DNA of 20,449 bases from a virus, in IMG/VR virus record IMGVR_UViG_3300025759_000910, positions 1-20,449 of that record, one strand, 5' to 3'. The notes under the pieces were generated by a model. It was not told the origin of the DNA. It worked only from the letters and a program-made list of their open reading frames with translations, and did no database searches. Below, piece after piece: positions 74-6,005 of this stretch (position 1 is the stretch's first letter; the number at the start of each line of letters is the position of its first letter). The position numbers and the translations under genes were made by a program.

Positions 74-495
74 CACATCAACTCCCGGCAGATCATACAA
101 AATGTGTCAAAGTCAACCTCACACGCATAGCGCCAGTCATAAGGATTGCCGCCACCTGAATACACATTGAACTCTGGCATATCGATAACCGCCTGCAACG
201 GTATTCGGCAACGTACTGGCTGGCGGTTGTAGCGGTACAGTAGCGCCGGATAGTTGCCTGCCAGTTGTGCCGCAACGATGGCCTGATCCCACCATTCTGG
301 CCTAGCTTGGACGCCTTCCTTATAATGCTTCAGCTCTAAGGTGAAGGGAAACGAACCGCTGACCGGGCGCAGATCGCCCAGACCAGCCTGTCTGGTTTGA
401 TCTAATATTCTCTCAAACTTTATGCCAAGGGCTTCGTATAGATCTGCCGCCACCTTTAGTTCGTTGCGACTGCCCTTTGCTCTTGAATTAACCAT
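73..495 (-). CDS. PD-(D/E)XK endonuclease, Holliday-junction-resolvase-like
   Basis: Predicted 140-residue nuclease of the PD-(D/E)XK fold, the type found in phage and archaeal Hjc-like resolvases. The motifs fall in the expected order: Glu12 in the N-terminal helix after a basic segment (SRAKGSRNE), Asp41 in GLGDL, and the E-x-K pair Glu54/Lys56 in LELKH, followed by a conserved-looking EWWDQA helix. The frame is open further upstream to 561, but the ATG at 495 is preferred: it has a GGGAGA ribosome site at 506-501, and the first resolvase-like residues follow it directly. Likely roles are resolving branched replication or recombination intermediates, or trimming concatemers for packaging; a VRR-NUC-like or other structure-specific nuclease cannot be excluded. 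It is the first gene leftward from the divergent intergenic region. Confidence 0.72.
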   Translation of the reverse strand: MVNSRAKGSRNELKVAADLYEALGIKFERILDQTRQAGLGDLRPVSGSFPFTLELKHYKEGVQARPEWWDQAIVAAQLAGNYPALLYRYNRQPVRCRIPLQAVIDMPEFNVYSGGGNPYDWRYACEVDFDTFCMICRELM

Positions 496-520
496 CTGCA
501 TCTCCCGATTAGAGCTAAAA

Positions 521-549
521 TAGTTATATGGGAATACATAGTGTTGCAA
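521..549 (-). promoter_or_regulatory. Possible weak leftward promoter
   Basis: On the minus strand TTGCAA (549-544) is followed after 17 bases by TAACTA (526-521), or after 15 bases by TATAAC (528-523). Either could serve the nuclease gene that starts at 495. Spacing and -10 matches are imperfect, so this is a weak candidate based only on position and similarity to the sigma70 consensus. Confidence 0.3.
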
Positions 550-589
550 GAGCATCATCATTTTTTTTCGATTTATGGCTAAATTTTAC

Positions 590-620
590 TTGAACATTAT
601 GTATTTTGGCCTTATATAAT
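590..620 (+). promoter_or_regulatory. Sigma70-like promoter of the rightward early operon
   Basis: TTGAAC at 590-595 is followed by TATATA at 613-618 (17-base spacer) or by the perfect TATAAT at 615-620 (19-base spacer). It lies 33-63 bases upstream of the first plus-strand gene, in the only sizeable AT-rich intergenic region of the window. This suggests that host RNA polymerase transcribes the recombination operon. A short palindrome ATAATTAT at 619-626 overlaps the -10 edge and might be an operator, but it is too short to argue for. Confidence 0.6.
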
Positions 621-622
621 AA

Positions 623-656
623 TTATCAGACAGACAAAAGGGAGATTATCTGATGA
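623..656 (+). promoter_or_regulatory. Inverted repeat spanning ribosome site and start codon
   Basis: ATCAGA (625-630) is the exact reverse complement of TCTGAT (649-654), and the outer bases 623-624 can pair with 655-656 (one G-U). In RNA this gives an 8-bp stem whose 3' arm contains the ATG at 653-655, with the GGGAGA ribosome site exposed in the 18-base loop. It could modulate translation of the first gene, or the DNA could be an operator. Confidence 0.4.
640..655 (+). repeat. Repeated translation-start module, copy 1
   Basis: GGGAGATTATCTGATG, containing the Shine-Dalgarno sequence, a fixed 8-base spacer and the start codon of the gene at 653. It is identical to copy 2 at 888-903 and differs by one base from copy 3 at 1159-1174. 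Copies 1 and 3 also share the next five bases of coding sequence (ACTAA). Confidence 0.85.
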
Positions 657-874
657 CTAAATTGATTGAACTTTATAAAAAACTTTTAGACGCGCAAGAA
701 AAACTGGCTGAAACCCAGCAATATAGCGATTGGTCAAGAAGCGTTGGTGCGTATAAGGCGGCTGAAACAAAGGCAAATCAAAAATTGTTAGAGGGTTGCC
801 GCAAACATCTAGGCCAAAATTATACACAACAAGGCCTGATTAACCTTCTAACCAAATTAAGGGATGCGGCCTAG
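653..874 (+). CDS. Small hypothetical helical protein
   Basis: A 73-residue protein beginning MTKLIELYKKLLDAQEKLA. It is lysine- and glutamate-rich with no signal peptide, membrane segment or cysteine pair, and probably forms a short helical hairpin. I do not recognise a family. It is the first gene of the rightward operon behind the 590-620 promoter, the usual place for small early phage proteins that bind host factors or DNA. The start is fixed by the GGGAGA ribosome site eight bases upstream. Its stop codon (872-874) lies in the loop of a GC-rich hairpin. Function unknown. Confidence 0.7.
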   Translation: MTKLIELYKKLLDAQEKLAETQQYSDWSRSVGAYKAAETKANQKLLEGCRKHLGQNYTQQGLINLLTKLRDAA

Positions 875-883
875 TGCCGCCCC
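861..883 (+). promoter_or_regulatory. GC-rich hairpin over the stop codon between first and second early genes
   Basis: GCGGC (866-870) and GCCGC (876-880) pair around a CTAGT loop that contains the UAG stop of the upstream gene. GGG (861-863) and CCC (881-883) can extend the stem past a two-base bulge. No U-tract follows, so it is not a standard terminator. It sits just before the ribosome site of the next gene and may affect coupling or mRNA stability. Confidence 0.4.
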
Positions 884-887
884 GAAA

Positions 888-903
888 GGGAGATTATCTG
901 ATG
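888..903 (+). repeat. Repeated translation-start module, copy 2
   Basis: GGGAGATTATCTGATG, base-for-base identical to copy 1 at 640-655. It sets the start of the second gene at 901 and rules out the longer GTG-initiated frame from 874. Confidence 0.85.
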
Positions 904-1179
904 AATGATAATAGGCGAAAAAAAATTGATGAGGTGCTTTTTATGGTCAGAGCCGCCGAGAGAATTACTCAAGATCTGTATGATGATGAGTATGATGCTT
1001 GGGATAATTTGCCAGATAATTTAAGGTATTCATCCAATGGCGAGGTTATGGAATTTTCAGTAGAATGTTTGGATCAAGCTGTCGCACATTTAGATAGCTT
1101 AATAGATTATCTTGAGGATGCGAAAGTAGATAACTGGGGTGGAAAATCCGCCTTTACAGGGAGATCATCTGATGACTAA
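901..1179 (+). CDS. Small acidic hypothetical protein
   Basis: A 92-residue acidic protein beginning MNDNRRKKIDEVLF. Two probable helical stretches flank a segment rich in Asp and Tyr (LYDDEYDAWDNLPDN, about residues 22-36). No known catalytic motif, signal peptide or membrane segment is visible. Acidic small early proteins in phages are sometimes DNA mimics or inhibitors of host enzymes; here that is only a possibility. The start at 901 follows an exact copy of the start module of the preceding gene. Its end overlaps the recombinase start by 8 bases, which indicates translational coupling. Confidence 0.7.
   Translation: MNDNRRKKIDEVLFMVRAAERITQDLYDDEYDAWDNLPDNLRYSSNGEVMEFSVECLDQAVAHLDSLIDYLEDAKVDNWGGKSAFTGRSSDD
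1138..1152 (+). promoter_or_regulatory. Small hairpin upstream of the recombinase ribosome site
   Basis: GGTGGA (1138-1143) can pair with TCCGCC (1147-1152) around AAA, with one G-U pair. It ends six bases before the GGGAG of the third start module, much as the 861-883 hairpin precedes the second one. It lies inside the preceding gene and is short, so support is limited. Confidence 0.3.
1159..1174 (+). repeat. Repeated translation-start module, copy 3
   Basis: GGGAGATCATCTGATG, one base different from copies 1 and 2. It fixes the recombinase start at 1172 rather than the upstream in-frame ATG at 1139. Confidence 0.85.
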
Positions 1180-1819
1180 TTACATTGCTTATTACCGTGT
1201 ATCAACTCAGCGCCAAGGCCAATCCGGCCTTGGTTTAGACGCCCAGCGTGTAGCTGTTGCGCCATTTGCTGACAAAATTATCTCTGAATATGTTGAGGTA
1301 GAGAGCGGCAAAAAGAATGACCGCCCACAATTAGCTGAGGCATTAGCCCACGCCAAGCGCGAAGGCGCCACCTTACTTATCGCCAAGCTCGACCGTCTAG
1401 CTCGCAACGTGGCATTCATCGCCAACTTGCTTGAAGCTAATGTCCCAATCACTTGCGCTGATATGCCAGAGGCAGACCGCACTATGCTACAGATGATGTC
1501 AGTCTTTGCAGAGTTCGAGGGGCGCCGCATCAGTGAGCGCACCAGAGACGCCCTAGCCGCCGCCAAACGCCGTGGCATCAAGCTGGGCAGTCCTAACCCA
1601 CACGCAGGCGGTAAAGCCGCTGGTGAGGCTCGCAGGGGCAAGACAGCCACTGTTGCTGTTGAAGCTATGCCCATCATTAAAACATTACGTCAATCCGGCG
1701 TGTCGTTTGCGAAGATCGCCGACACCTTGAATGACGCAAGAATACCGTCAGCAATGGGCGGTGTGTGGCACAGCACATCTGTGCGTAACTTAATCAGCCG
1801 GGAGCTAACTAATGCCTGA
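1172..1819 (+). CDS. Small serine recombinase (resolvase/invertase family)
   Basis: A 215-residue site-specific recombinase. The N-terminal resolvase domain (about 1-135) begins YIAYYRVSTQRQ with Arg9 and the nucleophile Ser11, and has the KLDRLARN motif at 72-79 (Asp74, Arg75, Arg78). A linker helix carrying FAEFEGRRISERTRDAL follows at 112-128. The C-terminal part (about 160-215) is a short DNA-binding region with a helix-turn-helix-like VSFAKIADTLNDARIPS and GGVWHSTSVRNLI, as in short chromosomal and plasmid 'recombinase family' proteins. The catalytic set looks intact. The protein is shorter than large serine integrases (450+ residues), so inversion or resolution is as likely as integration. 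It overlaps both neighbours by 8 bases and is coupled to an excisionase-like gene. The start is set by the GGGAGA ribosome site at 1159. Confidence 0.9.
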   Translation: MTNYIAYYRVSTQRQGQSGLGLDAQRVAVAPFADKIISEYVEVESGKKNDRPQLAEALAHAKREGATLLIAKLDRLARNVAFIANLLEANVPITCADMPEADRTMLQMMSVFAEFEGRRISERTRDALAAAKRRGIKLGSPNPHAGGKAAGEARRGKTATVAVEAMPIIKTLRQSGVSFAKIADTLNDARIPSAMGGVWHSTSVRNLISRELTNA

Positions 1820-1994
1820 TTTTGCAAGACAGACGACCATCTGGGAAATCGAAGAACCCCAGATGTTTTTCCCCACCAAGGGTGAAGCCTACCGCTGGTG
1901 GAAAAAAAATTCACCGAAGCCGTGGCGTGAGGTGAAACTTAACCGCCACATATTCTTTAACAAAAGGGAGATTGTCGAATGGCTAAATGCTTAA
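1812..1994 (+). CDS. Excisionase-like / small winged-helix DNA-binding protein
   Basis: A 60-residue protein whose start overlaps the end of the serine recombinase gene by 8 bases; GGGAG at 1800-1804 is a suitable ribosome site. The C-terminal part runs WKKNSPKPWREVKLNRHIFF (30-49) and ends FFNKREIVEWLNA. That resembles the wing and final helix of MerR/excisionase-type HTH proteins, whose typical end is 'a hydrophobic strand, then a K/R-E-E-hydrophobic-x-x-W-L helix'. PTKGEAYRWWKK (about 21-32) would be the first helix. Its position suggests a recombination directionality factor or an accessory regulator for the recombinase. Similarity is by pattern only; a general transcription regulator is an alternative. 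Confidence 0.55.
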   Translation: MPDFARQTTIWEIEEPQMFFPTKGEAYRWWKKNSPKPWREVKLNRHIFFNKREIVEWLNA

Positions 1995-2104
1995 TGAACA
2001 TAATTCTTGGTGGCTTTGCAGTGCTGTACTGCCTGAGCTGGACTAACATCTTACACCCCACCTATAATTTCTGGGGCGCAATCGCTTACTTTGGGGGAAT
2101 GTAA
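1979..2104 (+). CDS. 41-residue single-pass membrane microprotein
   Basis: A short frame with a clear ribosome site, AAAAGGGAGATTG at 1962-1973, and an ATG at 1979 that overlaps the previous stop by 16 bases. The product starts MAKCLMNIILGGFAVLYCL: a hydrophobic span at about residues 5-23, then an aromatic tail (YNFWGAIAYFGGM) with possible membrane-interface contact. The frame fills the space between the excisionase-like gene and the exonuclease exactly, and the exonuclease ribosome site (GGGGGA, 2093-2098) lies in its last codons. Both points favour a real gene. Function unknown; small early membrane proteins can exclude superinfecting phage or inhibit host envelope proteins. Confidence 0.55.
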   Translation: MAKCLMNIILGGFAVLYCLSWTNILHPTYNFWGAIAYFGGM

Positions 2105-2105
2105 A

Positions 2106-3062
2106 ATGGTCGGTAAACTAACACCTGATAATATGATATCAGCATCGCGTATACCTGTATTGCTGGGGCTGTCGCCTTACCAAACGCAGAACGAATTGCT
2201 AACTGAAATGATCCAGCGTTATCACGATAAGTTTGAGCCTACGTTTCACGGCAATGAGATTACTGAGTGGGGCGATAGACTTGAGCCTGTCATTCTAAAC
2301 GAAGCCGCCAAACGTCTGGGCTTACGCAATCATGAGATCCATATAACCAAGCCAGAGTTCCATCCTGATCTGCCATTAGCCGCCAGCCTTGATGGGCTGG
2401 GCGTTGCTAATGGCACGATCAAGACGAACGCCGCAAATGGTATATACTGCATGACTGCTGATGAGATAGACATTAGCACGATAGGCGTATTGGAAGCGAA
2501 AGTCACCAGCGCTATGCCCGAAGAGATGCCAGCCGCCCATCGTGGCGTATGGCAACTACAGGCACAGATGATGTGTGGCGGTTACAAGTGGGGTGCCATC
2601 TGCGTTCTATACCGGGGCATCGAAATGCGGATCTTTGTTTATGAAGCTGATGCGGTCATGCAAAAACGCATCGAGGATGCCATCCTAAACTTTGAGAAGC
2701 GCCGCAAGACAGGTGACGTCTATCCTGTCCTAACGTCTGACGATGGCAACGCGGCGTACCCCTACGCCGAACCAGACGCAGATCCATTGGATCTAAACGA
2801 TCAGCCGGATGCGCTGACAGCGTTTGAAGATCTGATGCTAGCCAAAGAGGCCAAGCGGCAAGCCGAAGCTGACATCGATATGGCTGAAGCGACCATCAAA
2901 GAATATATGGGCAACCACGATCAGGCTCATATCAATATCGGTCTATCTCGCTATCAGATCAAATGGCCTATGCGCCGCACCAAAGCACAGCCAGAAAAGG
3001 TTGTGCCTGCCAAGCCGGAAGCCACTGTCCGGCAGAAGACACTCAGCATTAAAGAGCTGTAG
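2106..3062 (+). CDS. YqaJ / lambda-exonuclease family viral recombinase
   Basis: A 318-residue nuclease of the lambda-Exo/YqaJ family, which digests dsDNA 5' to 3' to expose ends for single-strand annealing. All family motifs are visible: ISASRIPVLLGLSPYQT at 11-27, the WGDRLEP helix (Glu60), Asp96 in AASLDGLG, the catalytic E-x-K as LEAKVT (Glu130, Lys132), and WQLQAQM (Gln150, Gln152). The C-terminal third (about 230-318) is a helical then Lys/Pro-rich tail. A TTG-initiated frame begins at 2091, but ATG 2106 is preferred because GGGGGA ends seven bases before it. It is the last gene of the operon, directly followed by a terminator. No annealing protein (Erf, Rad52, RecT type) is visible in the window. 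Confidence 0.9.
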   Translation: MVGKLTPDNMISASRIPVLLGLSPYQTQNELLTEMIQRYHDKFEPTFHGNEITEWGDRLEPVILNEAAKRLGLRNHEIHITKPEFHPDLPLAASLDGLGVANGTIKTNAANGIYCMTADEIDISTIGVLEAKVTSAMPEEMPAAHRGVWQLQAQMMCGGYKWGAICVLYRGIEMRIFVYEADAVMQKRIEDAILNFEKRRKTGDVYPVLTSDDGNAAYPYAEPDADPLDLNDQPDALTAFEDLMLAKEAKRQAEADIDMAEATIKEYMGNHDQAHINIGLSRYQIKWPMRRTKAQPEKVVPAKPEATVRQKTLSIKEL

Positions 3063-3063
3063 G

Positions 3064-3088
3064 AAAGGGGGCATAAGCCCCCTTTTTT
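3064..3088 (+). terminator. Intrinsic terminator of the rightward operon
   Basis: A 9-bp perfect stem, AAAGGGGGC (3064-3072) and GCCCCCTTT (3077-3085), with an ATAA loop and a T-run at 3083-3088, two bases after the exonuclease stop. It separates the converging transcripts. For the leftward operon, whose last stop codon is at 3089-3087, the same hairpin is followed only by UUUCCU, so it would be a weaker terminator in that direction. Confidence 0.9.
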
Positions 3089-4221: not shown

Positions 4222-4650
4222 TTATCCTCTGAGGAAATAAACTGCCGTTCCTACGATACTAACAAATAGTATAGTAGCGATAAACCCTACAAATATCTCA
4301 GTAAAAAATTCCTTGCGCCGTTCCGCTTTCAGCTCTGCCTCGCGGCGCTCTTTCCTAGCTTCAGCTTGGAACGCCTGCCAATCTGACCAAAGCCCCGGCC
4401 TGCCCGAATAGATCATAATCTCTTTGAGGTCTTTTTCGTATTGCTTGATTTGTTCTAGCGCGAGGAAGGCTTGCAGATCTGACTGGTTAGCGGCGGCCTT
4501 ATTCTTGCCACGAACCCTTTTCTCTAGGTCTTCCTTGGCTGACGCAAAAGACGCAATGGCAGACCCAGCTCTAGCAATATCCCCGGCATTGCTGACAGCT
4601 TGCTTGATTACAGCGAAGGCGGCGTTAGCGGCGGCAAGTTCAGCTAACAT
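4222..4650 (-). CDS. C-terminally anchored coiled-coil membrane protein, possibly spanin-like
   Basis: A 142-residue protein, alanine-rich at the N-terminus (MLAELAAANAAFAVIKQAV) and then helical and charged. A GRPGLWSDWQAFQAEARKER segment lies at about 83-102, a charged coiled-coil continues to about 115, and a single strong membrane span closes it (about 119-140, ending FLRG). With the N-terminal body in the cytoplasm, this topology differs from a standard i-spanin, whose membrane span is N-terminal. It lies just upstream of the nuclease and endolysin genes and abuts the nuclease start. It may be a lysis-timing or virion membrane protein; I recognise the style from marine phage lysis regions but not a named function. 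Confidence 0.55.
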   Translation of the reverse strand: MLAELAAANAAFAVIKQAVSNAGDIARAGSAIASFASAKEDLEKRVRGKNKAAANQSDLQAFLALEQIKQYEKDLKEIMIYSGRPGLWSDWQAFQAEARKERREAELKAERRKEFFTEIFVGFIATILFVSIVGTAVYFLRG

Positions 4651-5642: not shown

Positions 5643-6005
5643 CTATATATAAGGGCTTTCGCCTAGGATACCAGCATCCCAAGCCGCTTTGAGTTCGTCA
5701 ATCGTTGTCGCCGCACCAATCGCCGATGACGCTGGTGCATCACGCAGTGCCTGTTTGTCAGCCACAATCTGCGTAGTGTCTGCGCTGGTTTCCAATGCCT
5801 TCATATAACTGGCATCCAAAGCCTCAAGCAGAGGCTTGCGAACCTCACGCACCTTGTCCTTGAAAATCTCTTTTGCCTTGTCTAGGTCTTCGCTAATCAC
5901 ATTGCCTGACAGTGACCACGCTCCGCGAAAGTCACGATTTGCTGGGATAGTTACATCAGCCGCATTAGCTTCGTTGCCATCCTTGTCAATAATAAATGTA
6001 TCCAT
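5643..6005 (-). CDS. Tail-fibre-assembly-like accessory protein
   Basis: A 120-residue protein. The N-terminal part is polar (MDTFIIDKDGNEANAADVTI) and then carries NRDFRGAWSLSGN, followed by a helix typical of this phage group (DLDKAKEIFKDKVREVRKPL) and LLEALDASYMKALE. The C-terminus has the recurring DKQALRDAP...ATTIDELKAAWD. This type is common downstream of fibres in marine and alphaproteobacterial phages and is often annotated as tail fibre assembly or hypothetical protein. A chaperone role for the fibre is inferred from position. A 9-base gap separates it from the gene upstream. Confidence 0.6.
   Translation of the reverse strand: MDTFIIDKDGNEANAADVTIPANRDFRGAWSLSGNVISEDLDKAKEIFKDKVREVRKPLLEALDASYMKALETSADTTQIVADKQALRDAPASSAIGAATTIDELKAAWDAGILGESPYI

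Follow-up and report, generated by a model that had tools for sequence, protein, structure and literature searches.

The window analyzed here is a 20,449-base record of a marine podovirus from IMG/VR (IMGVR_UViG_3300025759_000910, positions 1-20,449), taken at its full length. Its sole rightward operon runs from approximately 653 to 3062 and contains, in order, two small genes, a small serine recombinase gene (SR), a 60-aa ORF, a 41-aa ORF and a RecE/YqaJ-like exonuclease gene (Table 1). The start of the 41-aa ORF falls within the end of the 60-aa ORF. A promoter-like match is present at 591-620, where consensus matches were no commoner than in shuffled sequence. The sequence AACAyTATGTATT is common to both divergent promoter-like regions (approximately 532-548 on the minus strand and 591-606 on the plus strand), in each case just after the -35-like hexamer. 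It is conserved in 24 aligned loci of clade 1, the window's own clade, and is a possible operator. The leader AGGGAGATTATCTGATG precedes four genes of the window (639, 887, 1158, and 1965) with 0, 0, 1, and 3 mismatches, respectively, for a chance expectation of 0.03. Gene exchange between relatives breaks at the promoter end, at start codons and at stop codons. The leader was considered as a cassette recombination site and rejected, as it includes a Shine-Dalgarno sequence along with the start codon, the spacer differs from one relative to the next, and exchange breakpoints lie at start and stop codons in general.

Table 1. Features of the SR operon and its surroundings, in window coordinates.
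Feature	Coordinates	Strand	Remarks
PDDEXK_15 nuclease gene	76..561	-	Divergent constant neighbor; longest ORF; conserved start probably near 495
Divergent promoter region of SR operon	496..652	.	Conserved ACTTGAACATTATGTATTTTGG around rightward -35
Small exchangeable early gene upstream of SR	653..874	+	
Small exchangeable early gene upstream of SR	901..1179	+	PHROG 4068, function unknown
Small serine recombinase (SR), 215 aa	1172..1819	+	ATG start after leader AGGGAGATCATCTG
60-aa ORF ("excisionase-like"), lineage-restricted accessory early gene	1812..1994	+	Predicted beta-beta-alpha-beta-alpha fold
41-aa ORF with hydrophobic stretch, possible membrane protein	1979..2104	+	Usually third gene of SR block
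RecE/YqaJ-like exonuclease	2106..3062	+	Constant downstream neighbor of SR
Terminator-like hairpin closing operon	3062..3088	+	

The left neighbor contig of the window's phage, L024, was 99.96% identical to it over 5,590 shared bases. It adds two PDDEXK nucleases, a primase-helicase, an HTH_36 protein, terminase genes and the start of a putative portal gene, the terminase and portal labels being assigned by comparison with the gene order of Methylophilales phage MEP301 and the portal by its place. MEP301 is the nearest isolate and has the same SR-YqaJ order, with a tail protein 54% and an exonuclease 33% identical to those of the window's phage. Its SR (ORF4) is 37% identical, and its small gene gp03 lies upstream rather than downstream. 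The authors of the MEP301 report name the resolvase domain and note that the protein may not be a functional serine recombinase as PF07508 is absent (PMC8024684).

Relatives of SR are encoded on 399 viral stretches. The 80 retained, together with the window and L086, gave 82 loci, 27 in clade 1 (SR 89-100% identical) and 55 in clade 2 (67-73%). L001, L082-L085, L087, and L088 were left out of the locus counts as duplicates or MEP301. SR matched Pfam Resolvase PF00239 at 104.2 bits (cut-off 23.3) and its best PHROG was PHROG 125 "DNA invertase" at 130 bits. Neither the serine motif (YYRVST) nor the DRLAR stretch is disrupted. S11, D74, R75, and R78, which correspond to catalytic residues of resolvases, are invariant in a 34-sequence alignment of SR. 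The gene is under purifying selection, with a median dN/dS of 0.077 in clade 1 (153 pairs) and 0.130 in clade 2. The large recombinase domain is absent and the C-terminal DNA-binding part is short; 40 residues of it resemble the start of PF07508 (20.9 bits, just below the cut-off of 21.1). The catalytic domain is the same as that of Tn3/gamma-delta resolvase and the Gin/Hin-type invertases (PDB matches 4m6f, 5cy1, 3uj3, and 1gdt). SR differs from these enzymes in the PF07508-like C-terminal part and in a candidate site of 36 bp; their sites are approximately 26-28 bp. By sequence, SR is a small serine recombinase of the resolvase/invertase group, judged on the catalytic domain together with the short C-terminal part. 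The initial sequence-only reading of an intact small serine recombinase overlapping the 60-aa gene by 8 bases (1812-1819) was thus borne out, given the PF00239 match and the intact motifs.

SR was located between PDDEXK15 and RecE wherever both were on the contig. A sample picked by RecE gave 52 further loci, 21 with PDDEXK15 upstream, and SR lay between the two genes in 16 of the 21. It was absent from L230, L240, L245, L249, and L256. The long SR-less records G22, G19, and G20 have nothing that matches TTA and TTB, the tail genes of the window. When 23 long records were picked by TTA, two reached RecE, both with SR, and 21 had neither. All seven long records with a window-type TTA or TTB plus RecE, whether picked through RecE or TTA, carry SR. 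As far as sampled, SR therefore accompanies this virion type, since the long SR-less records are without TTA and TTB and the TTA-picked records that reach RecE have SR. The SR-less records, like the 33 records checked for an integrase, are mostly fragments. L256 (G022, 35,456 bp), L240, and L245 have the same early and replication genes, with no SR and no match to a window-type tail gene; in these the virion module was apparently swapped. Variable slots of the SR operon hold genes that by sequence are GIY-YIG or HNH-type endonuclease-like (L256 3502-4794; downstream of SR in L048, L050, and L051). A small protein resembling a LexA-type DNA-binding domain was noted by eye after RecE in G8, the contig of L045, at 1422-1652 (+).

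Clade-2 relatives have a gene of 62-77 aa, RHH-like (Arc-like), divergent from the SR operon, for example L047 9287-9481 (-), L060 4372-4578 (-), and L027 725-958 (-). The window's clade is without it and has the 60-aa protein instead, and L027 carries both. The RHH-like name rests on the sequence pattern, as the Pfam matches were weak (RHH_5 E 0.049, Arc E 0.15) and found in one of four proteins, with none in the other three. The absence of a repressor, remarked on from the window, therefore held for the window's clade as far as read and did not extend to clade 2. The accompanying statement that no tyrosine integrase is visible was confirmed, with no PF00589 found across 33 related records, a set that includes many fragments.

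The 60-aa ORF is also under selection, with a median dN/dS of 0.144 (72 pairs). Its family directly follows SR in 26 of 27 clade-1 loci, the contig of the 27th (L026) ending inside SR. In clade 2 it follows SR in one of 55 loci (L027), and the contig of L045 ends at SR. Near relatives of the protein were found on 25 contigs, every one of them from clade 1. An iterated profile of the family, run over 134 loci and 13,342 frames, gave 31 members and none in shuffled frames. Five members lie outside clade 1: L027 adjoins SR, L215 and L216 lie one gene from it, L221 has no SR visible on a contig that starts approximately 550 bases upstream, and L230 is in an operon without SR between PDDEXK15 and RecE. 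In most other relatives quite different small genes occupy the slot after SR. The protein scored 14.4 bits against HTH_17 (cut-off 27), and the best of 17 members gave E 0.017. The PHROG 66 excisionase matched two of the 17 members at E 0.2. AlphaFold models of two members (pLDDT 88 and 83) had a beta-beta-alpha-beta-alpha arrangement and no helix-turn-helix. No significant fold match was found in PDB or BFVD fold searches; the resemblance to AFV1p06 (Z 4.7, 42 residues) and to the hybrid-binding domain of RNase H1 (Z 2.7, 37 residues) is confined to the rough arrangement. Sequence comparison found no match in phage records at E up to 1 and none in PDB with E below 0.4.

This protein had been read from the sequence as an excisionase-like, dedicated directionality partner of SR. 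Neither description was supported: no excisionase helix-turn-helix family matched above its cut-off, HTH_17 included, the two models are without a helix-turn-helix, the protein is absent after SR in 54 of 55 clade-2 loci, and L230 has it without SR. The linkage of the two genes is tight within clade 1 and is seen in a single locus of clade 2. The 60-aa protein looks like an optional extra and not a required partner of SR. It is probably an exchangeable early gene product with a binding role.

Outside phages, at least 5,000 plasmid records matched SR at the domain level. Among the matches listed, the nearest non-phage relatives are recombinase/resolvase genes of Rhodobacterales plasmids (including Paracoccus yeei pLM20P5, Phaeobacter pP18_i, and Marinovum pMaD11), at 50-56% identity (best 55.8%) over nearly full length. 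One further plasmid record, outside the matches listed, is placed at 60-80% identity without a stated alignment length, and apart from it no relative above 56% was found in cellular DNA. The best of 98 relatives found in a scan of cellular-genome contigs was 55% identical. On prophages carrying the SR pair, which had been proposed as a check on integration, the scan showed none of these 98 relatives above 55%; the hosts may be unsequenced. The Rhodobacterales plasmids with SR relatives range from 4.9 to 44 kb, the smallest being 4.9, 5.8, 7.3, and 10 kb. ParA and RHH genes adjoin SR, divergent from it, in six of the nine plasmids read, and most of the plasmids have a replication gene nearby. 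The divergent RHH gene is shared with phage clade 2; ParA was not seen in the phage. Most simply, a recombinase on such small plasmids would be a multimer resolvase.

The pattern TGTATAA-N22-TTATACA (at most one mismatch) was found 68-413 bp upstream of SR in all nine plasmids read, and exactly once in each of the four read whole (L364-L367). The site is a 36-bp dyad in which a central dinucleotide separates arms of 17 bases. The words differ in more distant relatives, but the 17-2-17 geometry is kept, with up to 17/17 arm match. A 17-2-17 dyad of at least 13/17 was present within 100 bp upstream of SR in 11 of 15 further loci compared to three of 571 random windows. Of 79 cellular-genome loci, 26 were scanned for the TGTATAA pattern and seven entered the dyad test, five of them with dyads already known from the scan; the test added L093 and L094, which scored 13 and 16. 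L379, one of nine later plasmids, was left out, its SR starting at base 299. The TGTATAA form itself was seen in only one (L089) of the 26 loci scanned. The centers of the 17 sites listed are AA, AC, AG, GA, GT, TC, or TG. None is palindromic, which fits directional recombination.

In the phages, 12 records extend over the position immediately after the HTH_36 gene; all of them carry SR, and in each a conserved element is located there. Its form in most records is TGTRYAAAAGCAAAC-CAMC-GTWTGC plus an arm. In the window's phage it reads CGTGCAAAAGCAAACCACCCTTTGCCTCACTGCACG and is located at L024 4597-4632, outside the window and approximately 5.4 kb from SR. As in the plasmids, the candidate is a 36-bp dyad-like element with a central dinucleotide, one per genome read. 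It differs from the plasmid sites in the distance to the gene and in a slight loss of register between its half-sites (in the window's clade the outer and inner arms are displaced by 1-2 bases). No candidate site was found beside SR in the phages, unlike the plasmids.

The best genome-wide match to the plasmid consensus was at this same gene position in G14, G11, G13, and G29. When a matrix of the 17 bacterial sites was scanned over clade-2 genomes (19,419-34,192 positions), the element ranked 1st in G14 and G29, 2nd in G13, 3rd in G8 and G26, 5th in G11 and 9th in G27; these ranks are partly circular for G14, G11, G13, and G29, whose sites were first chosen by similarity to the plasmid consensus, while the elements of G8, G26, and G27 were located by gene position and not by score. 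In the window's own clade the ranks were 41, 58, 74, 105, and 146 of 16-31 thousand positions. None of 60 column-shuffled matrices reached the observed mean rank over six lineages, for which six of the 12 sites were taken. In cross-lineage scoring the element was the sole strong match in nine records (G1, G2, G3, G5, G6, G8, G11, G13, and G14), with 23.6-41.7 bits and a next best of at most 12.1, and was weaker in G26, G27, and G29. In G8 it scored 32.2 bits, the next match 12.1. The ends of G8 share a 123-base repeat that closes the genome into a circle, so that the count of one site can be taken at face value for this phage. No second candidate site was found in the phage genomes read. The HTH_36 locus and the element are absent from the long SR-less records G22, G19, and G20, and the matrix gave no recognizable site in MEP301. 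An inverted-repeat site with a central dinucleotide, suggested from the window as something to search for, was therefore found as a single candidate, with a high rank in clade 2 and not in clade 1.

Two other candidate sites were rejected. An iteron/palindrome array between the helicase gene and a 190-aa gene is also carried by the SR-less G22, G19, and G20. A dyad around the -35 box of clade 2b reached 17/24 or more at one place in one of 13 records (G8) and is not conserved between clades; it may be an operator of the RHH-like protein. The origin-like array lies at L024 approximately 5835-5955, between the primase-helicase and the 190-aa gene, and consists of several copies of a short word, always arranged alike and closed by a palindrome of 22-28 bp. 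Lineages differ in the word (ATCACA, ATCGCA, TCGCAC, or ATCTCA) and not in the layout, in SR-carrying and SR-less phages alike. A conserved non-coding block, AAAATTTTGTGTGA..CACCCCC...GGGGNGGGGGGCAAGGGGT, was found at L024 approximately 4504-4565, within about 110 bases of the element and near the terminase genes. Contigs G17, L383, and L387 end inside this CCCCC...GGGGG block, which may be a packaging cut, or the contig ends may be only an assembly problem.

The element could be the intrinsic terminator of the HTH_36 gene, with the true SR site elsewhere (for example in the divergent promoter region) or unrecognizable. We regard this as unlikely though by no means negligible. The element begins at the HTH_36 stop codon, which it overlaps in the window's phage, and a strong RNA hairpin was predicted there (z -4.66) and in G14 (z -3.10), with TTTT after it. 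The low matrix rank in the window's clade points the same way. In the other four of six lineages, however, the fold was not clearly better than shuffles (z -0.79, +0.63, -1.31, and -0.53), yet there the recombinase-site matrix ranks the element 1st to 9th. SR might also be a passenger of an exchangeable cassette region with no fixed role in the phage life cycle. The swapping of other operon genes at gene borders and the five relatives with the same flanks and no SR are consistent with this. The presence of SR in every long record with the window-type tail genes and RecE, the different virion module of the three long SR-less records, and the dN/dS of SR argue against it, and it is improbable.

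Integration and inversion were the other roles offered by the sequence-only reading, and neither gained support. A small serine integrase with the 60-aa protein as its Xis would explain the overlapping genes, the weak HTH_17 resemblance, the purifying selection on both genes and the restriction of near 60-aa relatives to contigs with a clade-1 SR. The 60-aa partner is nevertheless missing from most SR loci, and relatives of SR reach at most 55% in the cellular scan and 55.8% among listed plasmids, with the one further record at 60-80%. The best plasmid match of the tail protein is 29%. In each of the 13 contigs where the left half-site was found, it was accompanied by the right half and by the HTH_36 gene, and hence no host junction was seen; a second half-site scan with 15 bases gave at least 120 stretches, mostly chance given the short length. 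Every phage genome read has one site. With no foreign DNA at the half-site in these 13 contigs, no tyrosine integrase in 33 records and no close relative in cellular genomes, common lysogeny is disfavored and we give the integrase little credence. A role as DNA invertase, in which SR would switch part of the phage genome (a tail-fiber region, for example), is suggested by the best PHROG and by the names of some phage relatives. Among 13 related contigs there was no minus-strand alignment of 60 bases or more and hence no inversion. A single site per genome, including G8, argues against inversion, as do the non-palindromic centers, and this role is very improbable.

With inversion and lysogeny disfavored, monomerizing or circularizing the phage genome remains. 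The resolution of multimers, the third role offered, is favored by the plasmid relatives and by the single site per genome. We consider it somewhat probable that SR is a working plasmid-type resolvase that would act on phage dimers or redundant ends through the single 36-bp element, with no need for the 60-aa protein. From the sequence comparisons we infer that SR binds and cuts the phage element, and the phage's reason for needing the enzyme is likewise what we infer. SR, an early gene product, would recombine two direct copies of the element, so that genome dimers, or linear genomes with the element in both redundant ends, would become monomer circles. The 60-aa protein, as an exchangeable early gene product of one lineage, would be dispensable for this reaction. 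If the CCCCC...GGGGG block is a packaging start with terminal redundancy, the element would be present twice in each virion DNA, which SR could then circularize. A point against the resolvase reading is that it is not obvious why a lytic phage would require monomers.

The Cre-loxP system of P1 serves circularization and dimer resolution, Cre being a tyrosine recombinase and P1 having a plasmid prophage. Cre is unrelated in sequence to SR, and the role proposed for SR resembles it in one site per genome, circularization and dimer resolution. The iteron-like origin with a primase-helicase, the RHH-type regulator and a resolvase with one site near the packaging region could even indicate that these podoviruses are partly plasmid-living, with SR closing incoming genomes as Cre-loxP does. 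This is a tentative suggestion and we think it rather unlikely.

Searches of the open-licence PMC literature turned up no description of this type of site, either for the phages or for the plasmids, and no treatment of this enzyme was seen in PMC9004378 and PMC11288001. Small serine recombinases are common in lytic-looking phages, where they are filed as "resolvase" or "DNA invertase" without a known site. The present analysis gives a predicted site for the enzyme family in plasmids together with a matching single candidate site in phages, which makes the role directly testable. If SR does circularize or monomerize phage genomes, abundant aquatic podoviruses would be using a plasmid maintenance enzyme, and this would bear on their persistence in hosts.
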